Assembly (NCBI RefSeq): GCF_000378725.1
Contig: NZ_KB900377.1
Coordinates: 1 to 53,127 of the forward strand
Source of the DNA: Peptoniphilus lacrimalis DSM 7455
Lineage (GTDB): Bacteria; Bacillota; Clostridia; Tissierellales; Peptoniphilaceae
Direction of reading: 5' to 3'
DNA length: 53,127 nt
Position 1 is the stretch's first letter. Every line of letters begins with the position of its first letter. A program made the position numbers and the translations under genes. This document shows positions 3,440 through 20,581 of this stretch, one piece after another. Below the pieces are notes generated by a model that made no database searches, was not told the DNA's origin, and was given only the letters and a program-made list of their open reading frames with translations.

Positions 3440-4000
3440 TCACTTCTTGTTTGCTTCTTTTTCCACCTTATCTTTTGTTTCCTTAACTGTTTCTTTTGCC
3501 TTATCTTTAGACTTTTCTGCTTCTTCTTTTATATTTTTTGCTCCTTCTTTGACATCTTCTTTTACATCTTCAGCAGTTTTTTTAACTTCTTTGGTTGTAT
3601 TTTTTACGTCTTCTTTGAGTTCACTTGCTCCAGATTTTACAATTTCACCAATAGCTTTTGCTTTTGCTTTTGCAACTTCAACATTATCATCAAGTTGGTC
3701 TTTTTTAATAGCTATATTATCTTTTAAATCAGCATATGTTTTTTTAACTTGGTCAGAAGCTTGATATGCTTTAAATTGTATTGTATCAGCTGTATCTTTA
3801 GCAACATTAACTGCAGAATCAGCTAAATCTTTTGATTTATTAGCAATATCTTCTCTTGTCTTTTTACCTTCTTGTGGAGCAAATAAAATTCCGCCTAAAA
3901 TTCCAAGTGCTGCACCTGTAAGTATTTTTGATGCTTCCTTTAATTGTCTTCTTCTTACTGCTTGGCGTTTTTTTTCTTCTAAATAATCAAATAATCCCAT
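3440..4000 (-). CDS. YtxH-domain (LEA-like) stress protein
   Basis: Protein of 186 residues. The YtxH signature is a glycine-rich hydrophobic hairpin at about 26-45 (ILTGAALGILGGILFAPQEG, then KKTRED). The remainder is a lysine/glutamate/alanine-rich, highly charged helix with 11-residue periodicity (AEDVKEDVKEGAKNIKEEAE and similar), resembling late-embryogenesis-abundant proteins. Bacillus YtxH is a general-stress protein of unknown mechanism; a role in envelope or desiccation stress is inference. It is the first gene of the ytxH-ytxG unit and follows the 6S RNA gene. Confidence 0.8.
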   Translation of the reverse strand: MGLFDYLEEKKRQAVRRRQLKEASKILTGAALGILGGILFAPQEGKKTREDIANKSKDLADSAVNVAKDTADTIQFKAYQASDQVKKTYADLKDNIAIKKDQLDDNVEVAKAKAKAIGEIVKSGASELKEDVKNTTKEVKKTAEDVKEDVKEGAKNIKEEAEKSKDKAKETVKETKDKVEKEANKK

Positions 4001-12984: not shown

Positions 12985-15900
12985 TTATTTACTCAAATTG
13001 TAGGTTATTTGTGCCATTTGGCAACGTTTAAATTTTCCCATTGGGTTAAATGTTCCATCATCGTTTCCATTTAAAATTCCAAAGTCTACCATTTCCTTAA
13101 TGGCATCTTTAGCCCATGACGGAATTTTATCTTTGTCTTTAAAATCAATATTCTTATCCAAACTCTTTAAATCTATTTTTATAGATTTTAAGAATCTATA
13201 TAACATAGTCGTCATCTCTGCTCTTGATATAGGTTTATCAGGTGAAAATTTTCCATTTCCCGTACCCGCTGTAATATTATTTTCCTTAGCCCAAGCAACA
13301 AAAGGTGCATAATACATATTTTTATCTATATCTGTGAAAGATGTTTTTGCATTTGATTCTTTTGCTCCTGCAAATCTAGCTAGAACTGTTATAAATTCTC
13401 CCCTTGTTATTTGTTTTTCAGGCTCGAATTTTTGGTCTTTTACTATATCTTTAAAATAGCCCTTAGACAAACAATATTCAATTGCTTCTTTTGCCCAATG
13501 CTTTTGAGCATCCTTTGGTATAGTATAGGCAGTCTTAGTATTTTCACTAAATTTATTATTTTCTTCACTGCTATTTACAATACTATTAACTTTAGAAGTG
13601 TCTTTTTGAACTTTAGATTCATTTGACCAAGGTAAATAATGATTTTTATTGTTGTTTCCACCATCATTATTTTCAGGTTTTATTTCTGGACTTGGTTTTA
13701 ATTCAATCTCAGGTTCCACTTTTGGTCCAGGAGTTGGAATTTTATCCTTCCAAATAGCTTTTATCTGCGTATCTGAATTAATTATAATTTCTTCCCCAGG
13801 TGATTTTCTTTGACCATTTATTTCCCATGCATCAAATTCTTTTCCCTCTGCAGGAATAAAAGTAGATATAGGCAAAATATACTTTTGGTCTTTATCTTTT
13901 TCAATTGTATTCATTTCGCCAGTTCCACCATTTCCTATAAATGAAATTGTAAATTTTTTAATTTCTTTTTCCCATTTTGCATAAATACTTGTATCGCTTA
14001 TAATTTTTGAATTAAAATCAAAATTTTCTTTGCAAGCACTATCTTTATACCAACCCTTAAAAATATATCCATCTTTTGTTGGATCTGTCTTCGGTTTTTT
14101 TACATTTTCAGCCCAAATTGGAGTAACTTTTATTACTTGATCATCTACTTTACTTCCATCAAATGTTTCAAATTTTACTCTTGAAATAATTTCTGTCGTG
14201 TATATTGCATTCATGAAATTATCATCTGCTAATGCTATATGAAGTCTTAAATCCTTATATCCTCTTGCACAAATAATTATTTCATCATCCCTATTAAAGA
14301 AGAAGTTAGAATTAAATACAATACTTGTCATATCTTTTTTGGTTTTTCCTATTCCATCTGAGACTACATATTTTCCATACTCTTTTGTAAGGAGATATTT
14401 TTTTATAATTTTACCATCGTGCTTTATTGTTATAAGATTAATCGCATCAATATATGCCCTATCATCTTTTTTGTATCCAATAAAATGTTTACAATTTTCT
14501 TTTGTATATGAGGGGTCATCTGACTTAACTTCTGTTAAGATTGGTTCTACGGGGTCTTTTGTTTTTTCAAGCTTTTGTGTCCAAAGTGCTTTAAGTGTAA
14601 TATTTTCACTCAAAACTAATTCTTCTCCAGGATATTTTCTTTGACCATTTATTTCCCATGCATCAAATTCCTTGCCTTGTGGTGGTGTAAATTTGCTTTC
14701 AGGAATAATAAACTTTTCATTTTCAAGCTTACTTTCATCTGGCATTTCACCTTGTCCGGCATTTGAATCATAGTGTATAGTAATATTATTTGTTGCTATT
14801 TTTTTCCATATAGCTTTAATAGTCACATCGTTATTGATTTGATATTTATGACCGACTTCACTTTCATCTCCCAAATACTCCCAAGCCTTAAATTCATATC
14901 CTATTGGAGGAGTTATTGTGCATTCTGGCAATGAATAAATAGTTCCATTTTCAACCTCAACATCTTTCATATTGTTGGTTCCACCATTGGCATCAAAATG
15001 AATTATACGCACTATTTTTTGCCCTTCAACATTTGCACTAAGTGTATAATAAATGTCATTGCCAACGTCTGCAACATTTAATATTTTTATAAGAACATTT
15101 TTATACTTGCTAGAAATAATTGTAATCGTGTCATCTTTATCAAGCTTTGAGTTAAATGGGAAAGCTAATTTTTTATTTGCATTCCCCATAAAATCTGTTG
15201 AATCAATTCCTTTTGCACCTGTAATTTCTTGTGTTTTTCCCTTATGTTTTACAATAACTTTTTCAATAGATTTTAAATATTCATCAGACTCAGTTTCATT
15301 TTTATAAGTGATAAAATGTTCAAAATTTGTTACATTGGTTTGACCCATCAAAGGATATGGCATTACTGGTTCAAGTTTTTCTTTATTTTCTGGCAATTTA
15401 TCTTTCCATAGAGCCTTTATCTTTGTGTCTTTATCTACAACAATAGATTCTTTTGCTAGTTTTTTTGTGCCTTCAATTTCCCAAGCTTCAAATTCTTTGC
15501 CTTCTGGAGCGGTAAATGTGCATTCCGGTAAAGTATATTCTTTTCCTTTTTCTACCTTTACATCTGCCATGCTTCCATTTCCATCACCTTTATCAAATGA
15601 AATAGTAATCATTTCTTTTAGTTCTTCAATAGATGAGCTTATACCATATAAAATTGAATCTTTCGCATTTTTTGCATAAGTTATTTTTATAACAACATTT
15701 TTGTATTTGTTTGAAACAATTGTAATTGTGTCGTCCTTGTCTAGTCCTGAACTAAATTTAAATACCAATCTCTTGATCGGTTCTTCAAGGTAGTCTTTTC
15801 CATCTACTATATTTTTCTCAGTAACAACTGTTTCTTTTCCATCGTGGCTTACAATTAGCTTATCAATTGAATTTATATATTCTTCAGCATTTACATCTTT

Positions 15901-18900
15901 ATATGATATATAGTGTGTGTAACTCGGAAGTTCTGCCATATTTTTTGCAGGTATAGGTTTTATTGGTTCAAGTTTTTCTTTATTTTCTGGCAATTTATCT
16001 TTCCATAGAGCCTTTATCTTTGTGTCTTTATTTACAACAATAGATTCATTTGCTTGTTTTTTTGTACTTTCAATTTCCCAAGCTTCAAATTCTTTGCCTT
16101 CTGGAGCTGTGAATGTGCATTTCGGTAAAGTATATTCTTTTCCTTTTTCTACCTTAACATCTGCCATGTTGCCATTTCCATCACCTTTATCAAATGATAT
16201 AGTGCATTTTTCCTTATTTTCCTTGTCGCTACACTCTTCTACTTTTGCACCAATCATATAAGTTCCCTTTGTATCTGGCACATCCCAAGCATCATTAAAC
16301 ATTTGATAGGACATTGTATTTTCTTTATTATTATCTATTCCAAGAGCAAGATTACCATCAAGCTTTGTAAAAGCTATATAATAATCTCCCCAAACTTGAA
16401 CATTAGAAACATCAATTTTATTCCATCCCTCTTTTTCAAAAGTTAAATCTTTTGAGAACAGAATTTTACCTGGAAGTTCATCATCATCATTTTTGTCATA
16501 AATAGAAATTCTGTATTTACTTCCTTTTAAATCAACATCTTTTGTTTTGGTGATGAAGTATGAAATTTCCTTTATCTGTGCAATCTTGTCATTTGTAATT
16601 TTATTGGCAAAAGCCCTGTTTTTTAAATCCATTCCGGCAAGTTCTAAAGGAGTTACATCTGTATAACCAACACTTGATTCTTTTTGTGGAAAGATCTTTT
16701 CATGAAGTCTTGCATTAAAAGGTCTACTATGGTCATCTAATGTGAAATCTTGTTCTATTTTTTTATATCCATCACTATTTACAATAAATTTATACTCTCC
16801 TGGATATAAATTTTCAAATGTAACATTTACACCCTCTTTTTCAGCAATAGGTGCAATTTCACCTTTTTTATAAAGAGTAACTTTTCCTAATCCCTTAAAT
16901 TTTTCAAAATTTTCACCTTCAAGATTAACAGTAACAGAAGCCCCTCCTGCTTTTTCAAGGTATATATCCTTATTTAGTCCATCTTTTTTTAATGTTATAT
17001 AATCATGCTCACTATTTTTGTATCCATCAGCACTTCCTACGATAAGATAATCACCAACTGGAAGTTTAATAGAAAATGCACCTGTCCCTGGTTCTGTTTG
17101 AACAGTTGCTATAACTTTTTCTAGTGAAATCTGTTCTGCAATAATAATCTTTCCAGAAAGTGGTAAAACTGATTTATTTTCACTAGCTGGTCTCTCAAGA
17201 TTTGTAAGTTTAAAAGGAGCTGGATTTTTATCAATAACTATATTTTTATCCTCTAAATTTTTTGAGTTAATAGTAACATCATCAATATACCATCCGCCTG
17301 ATTGTTCCGGAGCTGATGAACCCATATCACTACCTGTGTCAAGTAAAAATTTAACTTTAAAATCTTTCACAAGATAATCTTTTGGAATTTCAACTTTATT
17401 AGTAAACCAAGAATTTTTTATTCCAACTTTTTCAAGATTTTTTTCATCAAGTGTGTAAAATTTTTCCCAAGTTTTGCCGGAATCTTTTGAAAAATAAACT
17501 TCTCCTATATCTTGGTTATAGGTATCATAATCATCGCTATATCTTTTTCCACTAGAACCAAACCAATTTTGATAATAAAGAGTTCCATCTGATAAACTTG
17601 AAAGGTCCATACTTGGAGAAACAAGTGCATATTTTGTTTTAGGGCTCCTATAATCATTCATATTAGTTGCCCACATATTCATACCGTCATTTTTGCCTAA
17701 AGATTGTTTTTCGATAGGTTTTTTGTATTGTGTACTATATTGATCTCCATATTTTAAGTTTCCAAATTCCCATAAACTTTTTTCATCGCCATTTATTGAA
17801 CTTGTCCAGCCTTCTTCTCCATTTTCAAAATCAAAACTCTTAAATTCTTTACCTTCTGTGAAAGTAACTGATTTTATTTCAGATGGTTCACTTTTATTGT
17901 CCCCAATTTTGGAAACTGCATAATAGTAGTAAGTTCCTTTTTGGGGCTTGGGTGTATCCGATAAATCTATAGAATATTTTCCGAAACCATTATTTTTATC
18001 ACCCTTTAAAACAGTTTTTATACATTCAAAACCTGAATTTTCTGATTTCGACCTATAAAGTTCATATGCTGTAACTTTATCATTTTTTATAGGCGAAAAT
18101 GAATAAACTATTCTACCATCTTTTTTATTACGTAAATTTAAAGACTTGCTAGGCTTTTCAGGAACTTCTTTTGATACTTCTTCAACTTTTAAGTCATCAA
18201 TATACCAGCCTTTACCTTCACTTTTCCATTCACCATTTGGTCTAAAACCGAACATTATACAAATTTTTTTGCCAGAATATTCTGATAAGTCAATATATTC
18301 ATTAGTCCATCCTTTTGAAGAATTTTTATAAGTTCTTTTTAATTTCCATTGCAATGTATCTGGATCGCTATCTTCTTTTGCTTGTGCAATCCAAATCTCT
18401 GCAGTATCAAAAAATGCATTTTCAGAATTTCCTAAATCATACCAATGTTTAAAAGTTAAAGCGGCCTTTCTATTTTCACCTGTCAAATCAATTGGCGGCA
18501 TAACAGCAATAGAGTTTCCCCTAATCTTATCGTAAGGTTCTATTCCAATAACTTTATTATTCGCTTCGTCGTTTTTAATCTTTCCCCATTTAAAAAGTTT
18601 TGCCTCTCCACCAAAATCAAAACCAGAAATATCTGATTCAAAATCATTCACATATCCAATCCCTATTCCTTTTTGAACTTCAAAAGGATAGACAGGAGTT
18701 TTTGTGACTTTATCATTAATGTCACTAACTTCAATGTAATATTTTCCAGCAGATAGACCTTTGAAAGTTTCAACAGGAATATTTGTTGAATAATAGCCGT
18801 CAACTTTATTTCCTCTTTTTAGTTCTAAATCGTATGATTTATAACCATTTCCTAAGTCTAATAAAAGTTTTACAGATTTAACTCCCGTATTGTCTTTGGC

Positions 18901-20520
18901 ATCAACATCAAATGTTGTTTTATAAGTTGTAAAAATTTTATTGATTGGATTGTGTGAAATTACAGGCGCTTGTGTGTCTTGCCCATGAGCAAGAAGTCTA
19001 CCTGATAATATTGCTATATTATCCTTTTTAATGTCTTTTCCTTTTTCTTGACCCATTGCAAGTTGAACAGCACTAACAGCATTAACTTTTCCATAACCAT
19101 AACCATTGTTTGGTGTTGTTGTGTAATATTCATCTTTTAATGGAAGGGCAGTTTCATTTAATATATTTTCAATTTGGTCTACAGTTAAATTTGGATTAAC
19201 TTGAAGCATAAGAGCAATAACACCTGTTACGTGTGGAGCTGCCATAGAAGTTCCAGTATAAATTGTATATTTTTCTCCAGGAATACAAGATAAAATATTA
19301 ACTCCAGGTGCAACAATATCAGGCTTAATTTTATTTGTATAACTTGACTTACCTCTTAAAGAAAACTTTGCAATATGTTCATCTTTTCTTATTGCTCCAA
19401 CTGCATAACTTTCAGGATAGGCCCCTGGAGTACCGATTGAATCATCTCCACCATCATTAAAGGGTCCAACATTTCCAGCTGAAAACACAGGAAAGATTCC
19501 TGCTTCTCTCCATTTTTTAACAATTTCTTGGAAAAATCCATCATTTGAATTTCCACCCCAAGAATTATTTACAACTTTTGGTGCCTTTGTTGGATCACCA
19601 TTTGGTGCCATAATCCATTCTCCAGCCTTTAATAGTTTTACATTATCTGTTTCGCCGTCTTGATCAAAAACTTTTACACCAATCCACTTTGCTTTTGGTG
19701 CAACCCCTAACAAAGCATTTTCCTTTGAGCCTAAAATAGTACCGCAAACATGAGTTCCATGTCCTCTGTCATCATAGGGTTTTTCTTGTGAACCATCCTT
19801 ACCATTAATAGTGTTATACCATGAATAGGCTGCAAGAGAAGAATCATTTCCCCTGTAATTTTTACTTATTGCACTGTGAGTAGAGTCAACTCCTGAATCA
19901 ATAATTCCTACAACAACTTCGTTATTACAATCTTTGGTATATCTTTGAGCTTTATATGCATTAATAGCCTTTAAATTCCATGGAATATGCATATCATATA
20001 CAGATCTTGACATTCTTATTTTTTCATTTTTTTCCGGCTTTTCTACTTTAATGACCTTATTTTCAATAATTTTTTCTACATCATCTCTTTTTGCAAGCTC
20101 CACTATTACAGATTTTCTAGCTACAAGATTTACACAGTTAATTATAAAAAATGATTCGTAAGACTTCACATTTCCCTTGTTCTTTTCATTTTTCAAAATC
20201 TCTAAAATTGATGCTTGAGAGCTTTTTGCAAGTTCTTTAGATTCATTTACAATTTCTTTTCTGATTTCTTTTTGTAACTCCTCTTTAGATTTTTCTGCAT
20301 TCGCATTTTTAACATCATTTTTAATTCTTTGGGAATTTACTTCCTTCTTTAATTTAACTATTACATCAAAAAATTCATCATTTTTTGATCTTATTAAATT
20401 TTCGCTTAGCTTTTTACTTATATCCTCAGAACTTTTGCTAATTGCAAGAACTGGAATAAAATCCGTAAAAAGAATAGCAGTAAATAGAATAATTGCTAAT
20501 ATTTTATTTAATTTTTTCAT
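12985..20520 (-). CDS. Giant secreted subtilisin-like protease with InlB-type repeats and SLH wall anchor
   Basis: Protein of 2511 residues. Signal peptide about 1-26, I9-like propeptide to about 165, then an S8 catalytic domain with Asp208 (IIDSGVD), His254 (GHGTHV), Asn350 (SAGN) and Ser425 (GTSMAAPH). It continues with two jelly-roll 'choice-of-anchor J'-like domains (about 620-800 and 890-1090) and a carboxypeptidase-regulatory-like domain (about 1125-1190). From about 1438 to 2262 there are six InlB/Listeria-Bacteroides-type repeats (ending KALWKD or similar) alternating with three modules beginning HYISYKD, HFITYKN and HFIGYKK that resemble hemoglobin-interacting (HID, DUF1533) domains. 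A linker and three SLH domains (about 2338-2511) finish the chain. It is predicted to be wall-bound and outward-facing, cleaving host proteins. The promoter carries Fur-like sites, and the gene is monocistronic. The HID assignment is the least certain part. Confidence 0.9.
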   Translation of the reverse strand: MKKLNKILAIILFTAILFTDFIPVLAISKSSEDISKKLSENLIRSKNDEFFDVIVKLKKEVNSQRIKNDVKNANAEKSKEELQKEIRKEIVNESKELAKSSQASILEILKNEKNKGNVKSYESFFIINCVNLVARKSVIVELAKRDDVEKIIENKVIKVEKPEKNEKIRMSRSVYDMHIPWNLKAINAYKAQRYTKDCNNEVVVGIIDSGVDSTHSAISKNYRGNDSSLAAYSWYNTINGKDGSQEKPYDDRGHGTHVCGTILGSKENALLGVAPKAKWIGVKVFDQDGETDNVKLLKAGEWIMAPNGDPTKAPKVVNNSWGGNSNDGFFQEIVKKWREAGIFPVFSAGNVGPFNDGGDDSIGTPGAYPESYAVGAIRKDEHIAKFSLRGKSSYTNKIKPDIVAPGVNILSCIPGEKYTIYTGTSMAAPHVTGVIALMLQVNPNLTVDQIENILNETALPLKDEYYTTTPNNGYGYGKVNAVSAVQLAMGQEKGKDIKKDNIAILSGRLLAHGQDTQAPVISHNPINKIFTTYKTTFDVDAKDNTGVKSVKLLLDLGNGYKSYDLELKRGNKVDGYYSTNIPVETFKGLSAGKYYIEVSDINDKVTKTPVYPFEVQKGIGIGYVNDFESDISGFDFGGEAKLFKWGKIKNDEANNKVIGIEPYDKIRGNSIAVMPPIDLTGENRKAALTFKHWYDLGNSENAFFDTAEIWIAQAKEDSDPDTLQWKLKRTYKNSSKGWTNEYIDLSEYSGKKICIMFGFRPNGEWKSEGKGWYIDDLKVEEVSKEVPEKPSKSLNLRNKKDGRIVYSFSPIKNDKVTAYELYRSKSENSGFECIKTVLKGDKNNGFGKYSIDLSDTPKPQKGTYYYYAVSKIGDNKSEPSEIKSVTFTEGKEFKSFDFENGEEGWTSSINGDEKSLWEFGNLKYGDQYSTQYKKPIEKQSLGKNDGMNMWATNMNDYRSPKTKYALVSPSMDLSSLSDGTLYYQNWFGSSGKRYSDDYDTYNQDIGEVYFSKDSGKTWEKFYTLDEKNLEKVGIKNSWFTNKVEIPKDYLVKDFKVKFLLDTGSDMGSSAPEQSGGWYIDDVTINSKNLEDKNIVIDKNPAPFKLTNLERPASENKSVLPLSGKIIIAEQISLEKVIATVQTEPGTGAFSIKLPVGDYLIVGSADGYKNSEHDYITLKKDGLNKDIYLEKAGGASVTVNLEGENFEKFKGLGKVTLYKKGEIAPIAEKEGVNVTFENLYPGEYKFIVNSDGYKKIEQDFTLDDHSRPFNARLHEKIFPQKESSVGYTDVTPLELAGMDLKNRAFANKITNDKIAQIKEISYFITKTKDVDLKGSKYRISIYDKNDDDELPGKILFSKDLTFEKEGWNKIDVSNVQVWGDYYIAFTKLDGNLALGIDNNKENTMSYQMFNDAWDVPDTKGTYMIGAKVEECSDKENKEKCTISFDKGDGNGNMADVKVEKGKEYTLPKCTFTAPEGKEFEAWEIESTKKQANESIVVNKDTKIKALWKDKLPENKEKLEPIKPIPAKNMAELPSYTHYISYKDVNAEEYINSIDKLIVSHDGKETVVTEKNIVDGKDYLEEPIKRLVFKFSSGLDKDDTITIVSNKYKNVVIKITYAKNAKDSILYGISSSIEELKEMITISFDKGDGNGSMADVKVEKGKEYTLPECTFTAPEGKEFEAWEIEGTKKLAKESIVVDKDTKIKALWKDKLPENKEKLEPVMPYPLMGQTNVTNFEHFITYKNETESDEYLKSIEKVIVKHKGKTQEITGAKGIDSTDFMGNANKKLAFPFNSKLDKDDTITIISSKYKNVLIKILNVADVGNDIYYTLSANVEGQKIVRIIHFDANGGTNNMKDVEVENGTIYSLPECTITPPIGYEFKAWEYLGDESEVGHKYQINNDVTIKAIWKKIATNNITIHYDSNAGQGEMPDESKLENEKFIIPESKFTPPQGKEFDAWEINGQRKYPGEELVLSENITLKALWTQKLEKTKDPVEPILTEVKSDDPSYTKENCKHFIGYKKDDRAYIDAINLITIKHDGKIIKKYLLTKEYGKYVVSDGIGKTKKDMTSIVFNSNFFFNRDDEIIICARGYKDLRLHIALADDNFMNAIYTTEIISRVKFETFDGSKVDDQVIKVTPIWAENVKKPKTDPTKDGYIFKGWYKDSACKENFDFNSKIISDTSIYAKWEKEIKKFTISFIGNGGTGEMNTIEKDKDQKYILPISTFIPAEGKEFDAWEINGQRKSPGEEIIINSDTQIKAIWKDKIPTPGPKVEPEIELKPSPEIKPENNDGGNNNKNHYLPWSNESKVQKDTSKVNSIVNSSEENNKFSENTKTAYTIPKDAQKHWAKEAIEYCLSKGYFKDIVKDQKFEPEKQITRGEFITVLARFAGAKESNAKTSFTDIDKNMYYAPFVAWAKENNITAGTGNGKFSPDKPISRAEMTTMLYRFLKSIKIDLKSLDKNIDFKDKDKIPSWAKDAIKEMVDFGILNGNDDGTFNPMGKFKRCQMAQITYNLSK
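15368..15607 (-). repeat. Near-identical internal repeat, copy B (InlB-type module)
   Basis: About 240 bases encoding protease residues about 1639-1718. It matches copy A exactly 597 bases away with only scattered substitutions. This is a tandem duplication of an InlB repeat plus adjoining linker, much more conserved at DNA level than the other repeats of the same gene. Confidence 0.85.
15965..16204 (-). repeat. Near-identical internal repeat, copy A (InlB-type module)
   Basis: Partner of the copy at 15368-15607, encoding residues about 1440-1519. The two copies are separated by one HID-like module, so the duplicated unit is about 199 residues (InlB repeat plus HID-like module), although the HID-like halves have diverged. 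Confidence 0.85.
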
Positions 20521-20542: not shown

Positions 20543-20581
20543 AATCGTTATCATTTTATCATAATTAATAATCGTTATCAA
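20543..20581 (-). promoter_or_regulatory. Protease promoter with two Fur-box-like operators
   Basis: On the minus strand: -35 TTGATA (20576-20581), 17-bp spacer, -10 TAAAAT (20553-20558). The spacer holds TGATAAC-G-ATTATTA (20566-20580), a 7-1-7 Fur-type palindrome with one mismatch, and the same 11-mer TGATAACGATT recurs at 20543-20553, just past the -10. A Fur-like repressor bound here would block polymerase directly when iron is plentiful. The 7-1-7 form is shared by Fur, Zur and PerR, so the metal is inferred. Confidence 0.75.

Follow-up and report, generated by a model that had tools for sequence, protein, structure and literature searches.

Is the giant surface protease encoded by Peptoniphilus lacrimalis DSM 7455 an enzyme of iron starvation, and does it feed on hemoglobin, as was initially proposed? 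The question is raised by a 53,127-bp stretch of contig NZ_KB900377.1 (the window, meaning the whole stretch of DNA analyzed here), in which a minus-strand gene encodes a 2511-residue subtilase below a promoter bearing a Fur-box-like element. From a comparison of this promoter with those of its orthologs and with the rest of the genome, we judge the product to be, probably, a Fur-repressed cell-surface subtilase; Fur control of the protease is likely on the sequence evidence, and hemoglobin capture by modules within the protein is possible. The argument for control turns on the following features.

12985..20520, minus strand: subtilase gene with SLH anchor, 2511 amino acids (open reading frame, translation and Pfam)
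20553..20581 (read 20581 to 20553), minus strand: predicted promoter TTGATA-17-TAAAAT with an extended -10, a consensus match only (10 of 12)
20566..20580, minus strand: Fur-box-like operator TGATAACGATTATTA, overlapping the -35 and spacer (pattern match, with a counterpart at two orthologs)
20543..20553, minus strand: second copy of TGATAACGATT, a half-site whose first base is the last T of the -10 (exact match)

The promoter pair is the top of six sigma-70-like matches between positions 20450 and 20850, where shuffled sequences average 3.7. Two exact copies of TGATAACGATT lie on the minus strand, at 20580-20570 and 20553-20543, and the genome scan proposed by the initial annotation found these to be the only exact copies in the whole 1.85 Mb genome. 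The initial placement needs two corrections: the second copy begins on the final T of the -10 and not just past it, and the first is not wholly within the 17-bp spacer but covers five of the six -35 bases and six bases at the start of the spacer. The first copy runs on into TGATAACGATTATTA. The classical Fur box consensus is a 7-1-7 inverted repeat, TGATAATNATTATCA, and the window element, TGATAAC-G-ATTATTA, differs from it by two mismatches, while five of the seven pairs between its own two arms match; an equally good match was reached in 7 of 500 shuffles. This predicted operator (20566-20580) lies on the core promoter, overlapping the best predicted pair at its -35 and spacer. Shuffling the 270-bp intergenic region 2000 times produced a direct repeat of at least 11 bp in 386 cases (14 of 2000 for its last 80 bp), so in AT-rich DNA of this kind the repeated 11-mer is unremarkable by itself. 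Rfam searches of the window promoter and of the P. genitalis protease leader matched no known RNA. Taken alone, the window promoter is weak evidence for Fur control.

The case is strengthened by the presence of the same box at the orthologous genes of P. asaccharolyticus and P. genitalis. Homologs of the first 1100 residues were found in 19 of 130 genomes of the family (E up to 1e-60), with at least 65% identity in seven, the window genome included; the others are P. genitalis (G002), P. asaccharolyticus (G119) and four genomes of the genus g35, the Parvimonas group (G114, G115, G117 and G118, with P. micra and P. parva among them). In P. asaccharolyticus, TAATAATTGTTATCA (reverse complement TGATAACAATTATTA) differs from the window's element at the centre alone and sits 7 nt after a TTGAAA-17-TAGAAT pair; in P. 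genitalis, TGAGAATTGTTATCA (reverse complement TGATAACAATTCTCA) has the same offset after a TTTACA-16-TATCAT pair, both promoters being assigned by eye. These elements lie 296 and 359 bp, respectively, ahead of the start codon. With the classical pattern, which was set beforehand, 5 of 500 shuffles equaled the protease site in each of these two species, beside the 7 of 500 for the window. The P. micra protease promoter also holds a two-mismatch classical element (3 of 500 shuffles).

A tuned pattern, TGATAAYNRTTATCA, with one mismatch allowed, gave nine sites in the window genome, seven in P. genitalis and ten in P. asaccharolyticus, one of them at the protease in each of the three; the chance of a site in a 270-420 bp stretch is about 0.001-0.002 per genome, computed by hand as a simple proportion for these three. 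The 15-mer at the second 11-mer copy has three mismatches from this pattern (hand count). In P. asaccharolyticus the sites stand in heme and iron company: besides the protease, they mark a FecCD operon (the only perfect match), an Isd/Shp-like operon, a ZinT gene and a lone NEAT gene. Of the other five, three fall within open reading frames and two are intergenic, next to genes whose role is unknown; the FecCD and ZinT sites were called intergenic after discounting open reading frames drawn over them by script. The protease gene is followed, at about 4.5 kb, by the start of the Isd/Shp-like operon, which encodes NEAT, HemeBinding_Shp, Peripla_BP_2 and FecCD proteins, followed further down by a NEAT+SLH protein and a stalk-domain protein; two smaller NEAT proteins match under the Pfam cut-off. 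By eye, the heme-operon promoter of this species is similar to the window promoter (TTGATAACAGTTATAAATTAGATGAAAT versus TTGATAACGATTATTAATTATGATAAAAT). Isd/Shp-like heme clusters with NEAT, Shp, FecCD and NEAT+SLH genes were located at L110:4771-16516 in P. asaccharolyticus and L111:6090-17388 in P. genitalis, where families were tested for most genes of the former and one of the latter; the P. genitalis heme operon has a two-mismatch element only. A matrix built from five non-protease sites gave scores at the protease promoters that 8 of 1000 shuffles reached for the window and 1 of 1000 each for P. asaccharolyticus and P. genitalis; its training sites came from the tuned pattern, the Isd-like operon site having been found earlier by eye. 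The same matrix was weak at two g35 FecCD promoters (44 and 23 of 1000).

The Fur-type protein that the initial annotation expected is represented by two Fur-family genes (PF01475, E 2.0e-37). The Fur candidate, L066:5672-6139, has Fur as its best NCBIfam match, at 168 bits under a cut-off of 220, while the second gene adjoins a znuABC-like operon and was named Zur from its neighbours. A FecCD search of this genome returned three matches of 27-33 bits over a cut-off of 26.5, compared with 285-291 bits for the clear ones of G114 and G115, and by gene order we read all three as zinc/manganese ATP-binding cassette (ABC) operons. The searches found no clear FecCD permease and no NEAT domain in the window genome, absences that are likely, without being certain, in an assembly that is 99.6% complete. 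By eye, and with the DtxR consensus as the reference, a mnt-like ABC operon (L063, about 4440) has a DtxR/MntR-type box just after its -10; the znuABC-like (L065) and adcABC-like (L064) operons carry TGCGAAT-type elements.

The protein itself is organized as follows.

19090..19923, minus strand: Peptidase S8 domain, residues 200-477 (Pfam, E 4.5e-62)
15637..15951, minus strand: HID-like module 1, residues about 1524-1628 (repeat detection and alignment)
15037..15354, minus strand: HID-like module 2, residues about 1723-1828 (predicted structure, pLDDT 87)
14191..14505, minus strand: HID-like module 3, residues about 2006-2110 (PF07550, 21.2-21.5 bits)
13213..13341, minus strand: best of three SLH stretches, residues 2394-2436 (Pfam)

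The S8 protease and wall anchor of the initial annotation are both present. A signal peptide is apparent by eye, the S8 domain contains the motifs DSGVD at 208, HGTHV at 254 and GTSMAAP at 423, in which D208, H254 and S425 form the catalytic triad, and the C-terminus has three SLH stretches (whole protein, E 2.1e-30). Pfam also assigned five Listeria-Bacteroides repeat stretches (PF09479) and three InlB-type stretches (PF18998) that may overlap them. For the middle region, residues 620-1090, no PDB relative was found at E up to 1, and NCBIfam gave weak matches only: an M36 model and, in the G070 homolog, choice-of-anchor J (24.6 bits, cut-off 30). The gene is followed by those for ribosomal proteins L13 and S9 and for pyruvate carboxylase and preceded by an [FeFe] hydrogenase gene, and is therefore outside any heme locus.

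The three modules lie where they had been placed, and their sequences support a remote kinship to HID, a domain of hemoglobin receptors. The match itself falls short of the family threshold: module 3 scores 21.5 and 21.2 bits against the PF07550 cut-off of 22.3, fragments of modules 1 and 2 match no family at E up to 10, and a six-frame search of the genome for PF07550 returned no match. For the predicted structure of module 2, the top VIA-align rows are HID2 of the receptor Shr, and Foldseek gave no significant match, its best rows being major histocompatibility complex proteins at E about 0.1. The module profile matched the single HID2 fragment weakly, with a probability of 27%. The HID2 hemoglobin-contact residues scored were R196, Y197, Q209, I224, S225 and M238; by sequence alignment, Y197 alone is identical in all modules (one of six), and the R196 position is G, S or T in 11 of 11 modules. 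With these contact residues mostly unmatched, a Shr-like binding mode is disfavored.

Several observations weigh against Fur control, and they bear on two other accounts of the operator. The 11-mer repeat and palindrome could be chance products of an AT-rich constitutive promoter; this is improbable in our estimate, although repeats of this length are frequent in shuffles of the intergenic region and genome site counts lie near their controls. The tuned pattern was written after some sites had been seen, and its counts barely exceed those of the reversed pattern (9 versus 6, 7 versus 5 and 10 versus 8 in the window genome, P. genitalis and P. asaccharolyticus) and are at or under it in three g35 genomes (2 versus 2, 5 versus 7 and 4 versus 10), where none of the sites is at the protease; most sites may therefore be chance. 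The classical pattern with up to two mismatches likewise gives 60 sites genome-wide versus 43 for the reversed control, and the pyruvate carboxylase upstream region has such a match too, the one other among 25 window regions. By the matrix, the protease ranks eighth among 145 upstream regions of its own genome, some of which were chosen for having sites. The P. parva and G115 protease promoters have three mismatches at best (91 and 108 of 500 shuffles), and nothing significant was found at the protease homologs of G070, G091, Johnsonella, Atopobium and P. alvei; the matrix, too, is weak at the P. micra (31 of 1000) and G115 (50) promoters and fails at those of P. parva (791), Johnsonella (487), Atopobium (731) and G070 (196). 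What chance explains poorly is that nearly the same 15-mer, rare genome-wide, stands at the orthologous gene in two more species, a comparison limited by the relatedness of these two orthologs to each other, and that the sites of one species keep heme and iron company. A DtxR-, PerR- or Zur-type metal or redox regulator might use the operator instead, which we also consider improbable. The window genome contains a DtxR-family gene besides the Fur-family gene by the znuABC-like operon, and one P. genitalis site, between rubrerythrin and redoxin genes, fits a PerR-type regulator. Furthermore, feoAB carries a DtxR-type box (by eye, L062, just after the -10) and feoA fits the Fur matrix poorly (389 of 1000 shuffles reach its score), so the identified iron importer may be outside the Fur regulon. 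Against such a regulator at the protease, the zinc-type promoters have a different element and the feoAB and mnt-like promoters have DtxR-type boxes, and all four fail the Fur matrix (mnt-like 273, znuA 696 and adc 798 of 1000, beside the feoA value). The iron regulation initially proposed is supported by comparison: the Fur genes, the operator at two more orthologs and the heme and iron genes of P. asaccharolyticus speak for it on sequence grounds. In the window genome itself, feoAB has no such site.

The account of the protein as a gingipain-like hemoglobin eater, in which HID-like modules bind hemoglobin, the S8 domain digests it and heme or iron is released to the cell, is doubtful, and the capture and digestion of hemoglobin that had been proposed are not borne out by the comparisons: one of six contact residues is kept, no NEAT domain and no clear FecCD permease was found in the window genome, and the NEAT-bearing species, P. 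asaccharolyticus and P. genitalis, have orthologs without HID-like modules. Conversely, in the window species and three g35 genomes tested, the modules are present and no NEAT domain was seen. PF07550 we take to be DUF1533 under a newer name. DUF1533 has also been reported in an SLH beta-glucanase (PMC4765114), so the domain does not imply hemoglobin. A version in which a Fur-controlled, wall-bound subtilase acts as a Gram-positive gingipain analogue, with divergent HID modules gripping hemoglobin or another host iron protein for digestion in place and iron entering through FeoB, strikes us as unlikely.

The likeliest role of this probably Fur-repressed subtilase is that of a surface protease of iron starvation that supplies Feo and peptide uptake with its products. 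We infer Fur binding, the iron response, the substrate and the uptake route along the following lines. When iron is plentiful, iron-loaded Fur would occupy TGATAACGATTATTA and block the promoter at its -35 and spacer; under iron shortage the gene would be derepressed. The protease would then be secreted, docked through its three SLH domains and free to cleave host or neighbour proteins, with the HID-like and InlB-type modules perhaps keeping substrates close to the catalytic domain. The likeliest gain would be iron and peptides from host proteins, for which hemoglobin, transferrin and lactoferrin are candidates, and freed iron would be imported as Fe2+, in keeping with a genome that encodes FeoB and yielded no clear FecCD heme/siderophore permease.

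Parts of this arrangement have counterparts elsewhere. The gingipains Kgp and RgpA of Porphyromonas gingivalis are cysteine proteases that carry adhesin modules and have a catalytic domain unrelated to S8; SufA of Finegoldia magna is subtilisin-like; IlsA of Bacillus cereus is SLH-anchored and, to our knowledge, has no protease domain. The gingipains serve heme supply and are comparable in function (PMC10100897). SufA is likewise a proteinase of a Gram-positive anaerobic coccus, likened here by description and not by sequence, and its reported role is fibrinogen cleavage (PMC2885652). IlsA, like the proposed behavior of the window protein, is a surface protein made under iron restriction, and unlike it binds heme, probably via a NEAT domain (PMC2777315). 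Shr of Streptococcus pyogenes is a hemoglobin receptor with HID1 and HID2 (PMC10912661); the window modules share weak sequence similarity with HID2 and may share its fold, whereas Shr has NEAT domains and, in the available part of that report, is not described as a protease. The Paenibacillus JDR-2 beta-glucanase resembles the window protein in placing DUF1533 on an SLH surface enzyme and differs in being a carbohydrate enzyme (PMC4765114). Literature searches that combined Peptoniphilus with heme and NEAT domains, or with the Fur box, turned up nothing beyond work on Gemella in the collection available. The Gram-positive anaerobic cocci are human commensals and opportunists about whose iron acquisition little seems to have been published, and our data propose a small Peptoniphilus Fur regulon that links a giant protease to heme uptake through a directly testable operator.

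The orthologs differ in their anchors: the window protein has SLH domains, and by eye the P. parva protein ends in a membrane-spanning tail and that of P. genitalis in one of stalk type. Such variation would be expected of a modular surface enzyme that is patchily distributed, as this one is, occurring in 2 of 14 genomes of the genus shared by the window genome and P. genitalis. The protease genes of P. genitalis (L029, about 3510-3799) and P. asaccharolyticus (L030, about 3530-3815) are preceded by highly similar leaders of about 300 nt, with no conserved open reading frame by eye and, in P. genitalis, no Rfam match. A named scan with the whole protease gave no match and one with the middle region gave 11 loci. 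In the KA00581 ortholog (L028/L079) the S8 region is interrupted by an in-frame TAA; the remaining ortholog rows have no stop in the matched stretch. A DtxR-type reading of the Parvimonas-group protease promoters (TTAGTTTATGCTAATTTTA after the -10) was dropped: G114 and G115 have no PF02742 match, and seven of their metal-transport loci, scanned at a threshold of at least 14 of 19, contained no DtxR-type box.

The other P. genitalis sites lie at ZinT, an ABC transporter, the rubrerythrin/redoxin pair, a TetR-like gene (by eye) and a methyltransferase-like gene, so called from its likeness to that of the window genome, and one is inside an open reading frame. In the window genome they lie at three secreted Cys-rich proteins, a methyltransferase and a DUF6796 gene, with one 144 bp ahead of a 748-residue open reading frame and two inside others. 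In both of the similar methyltransferase genes of the window genome and P. genitalis (L142:3065 and L140:3074), a Fur-box-like site precedes the start by 8-14 bp. The Cys-rich proteins (L034:1589-2290, L039:1621-2646 and, on the minus strand, L087, G000:C12:32058-33585) include two with CGCSC...CPCC-type repeats and two with Pfam stalk domains. At each of the three genes a Fur box with one mismatch precedes a -35-like hexamer (by eye) by 5-7 bp; the proteins may belong to the same regulon and bind metal outside the cell.
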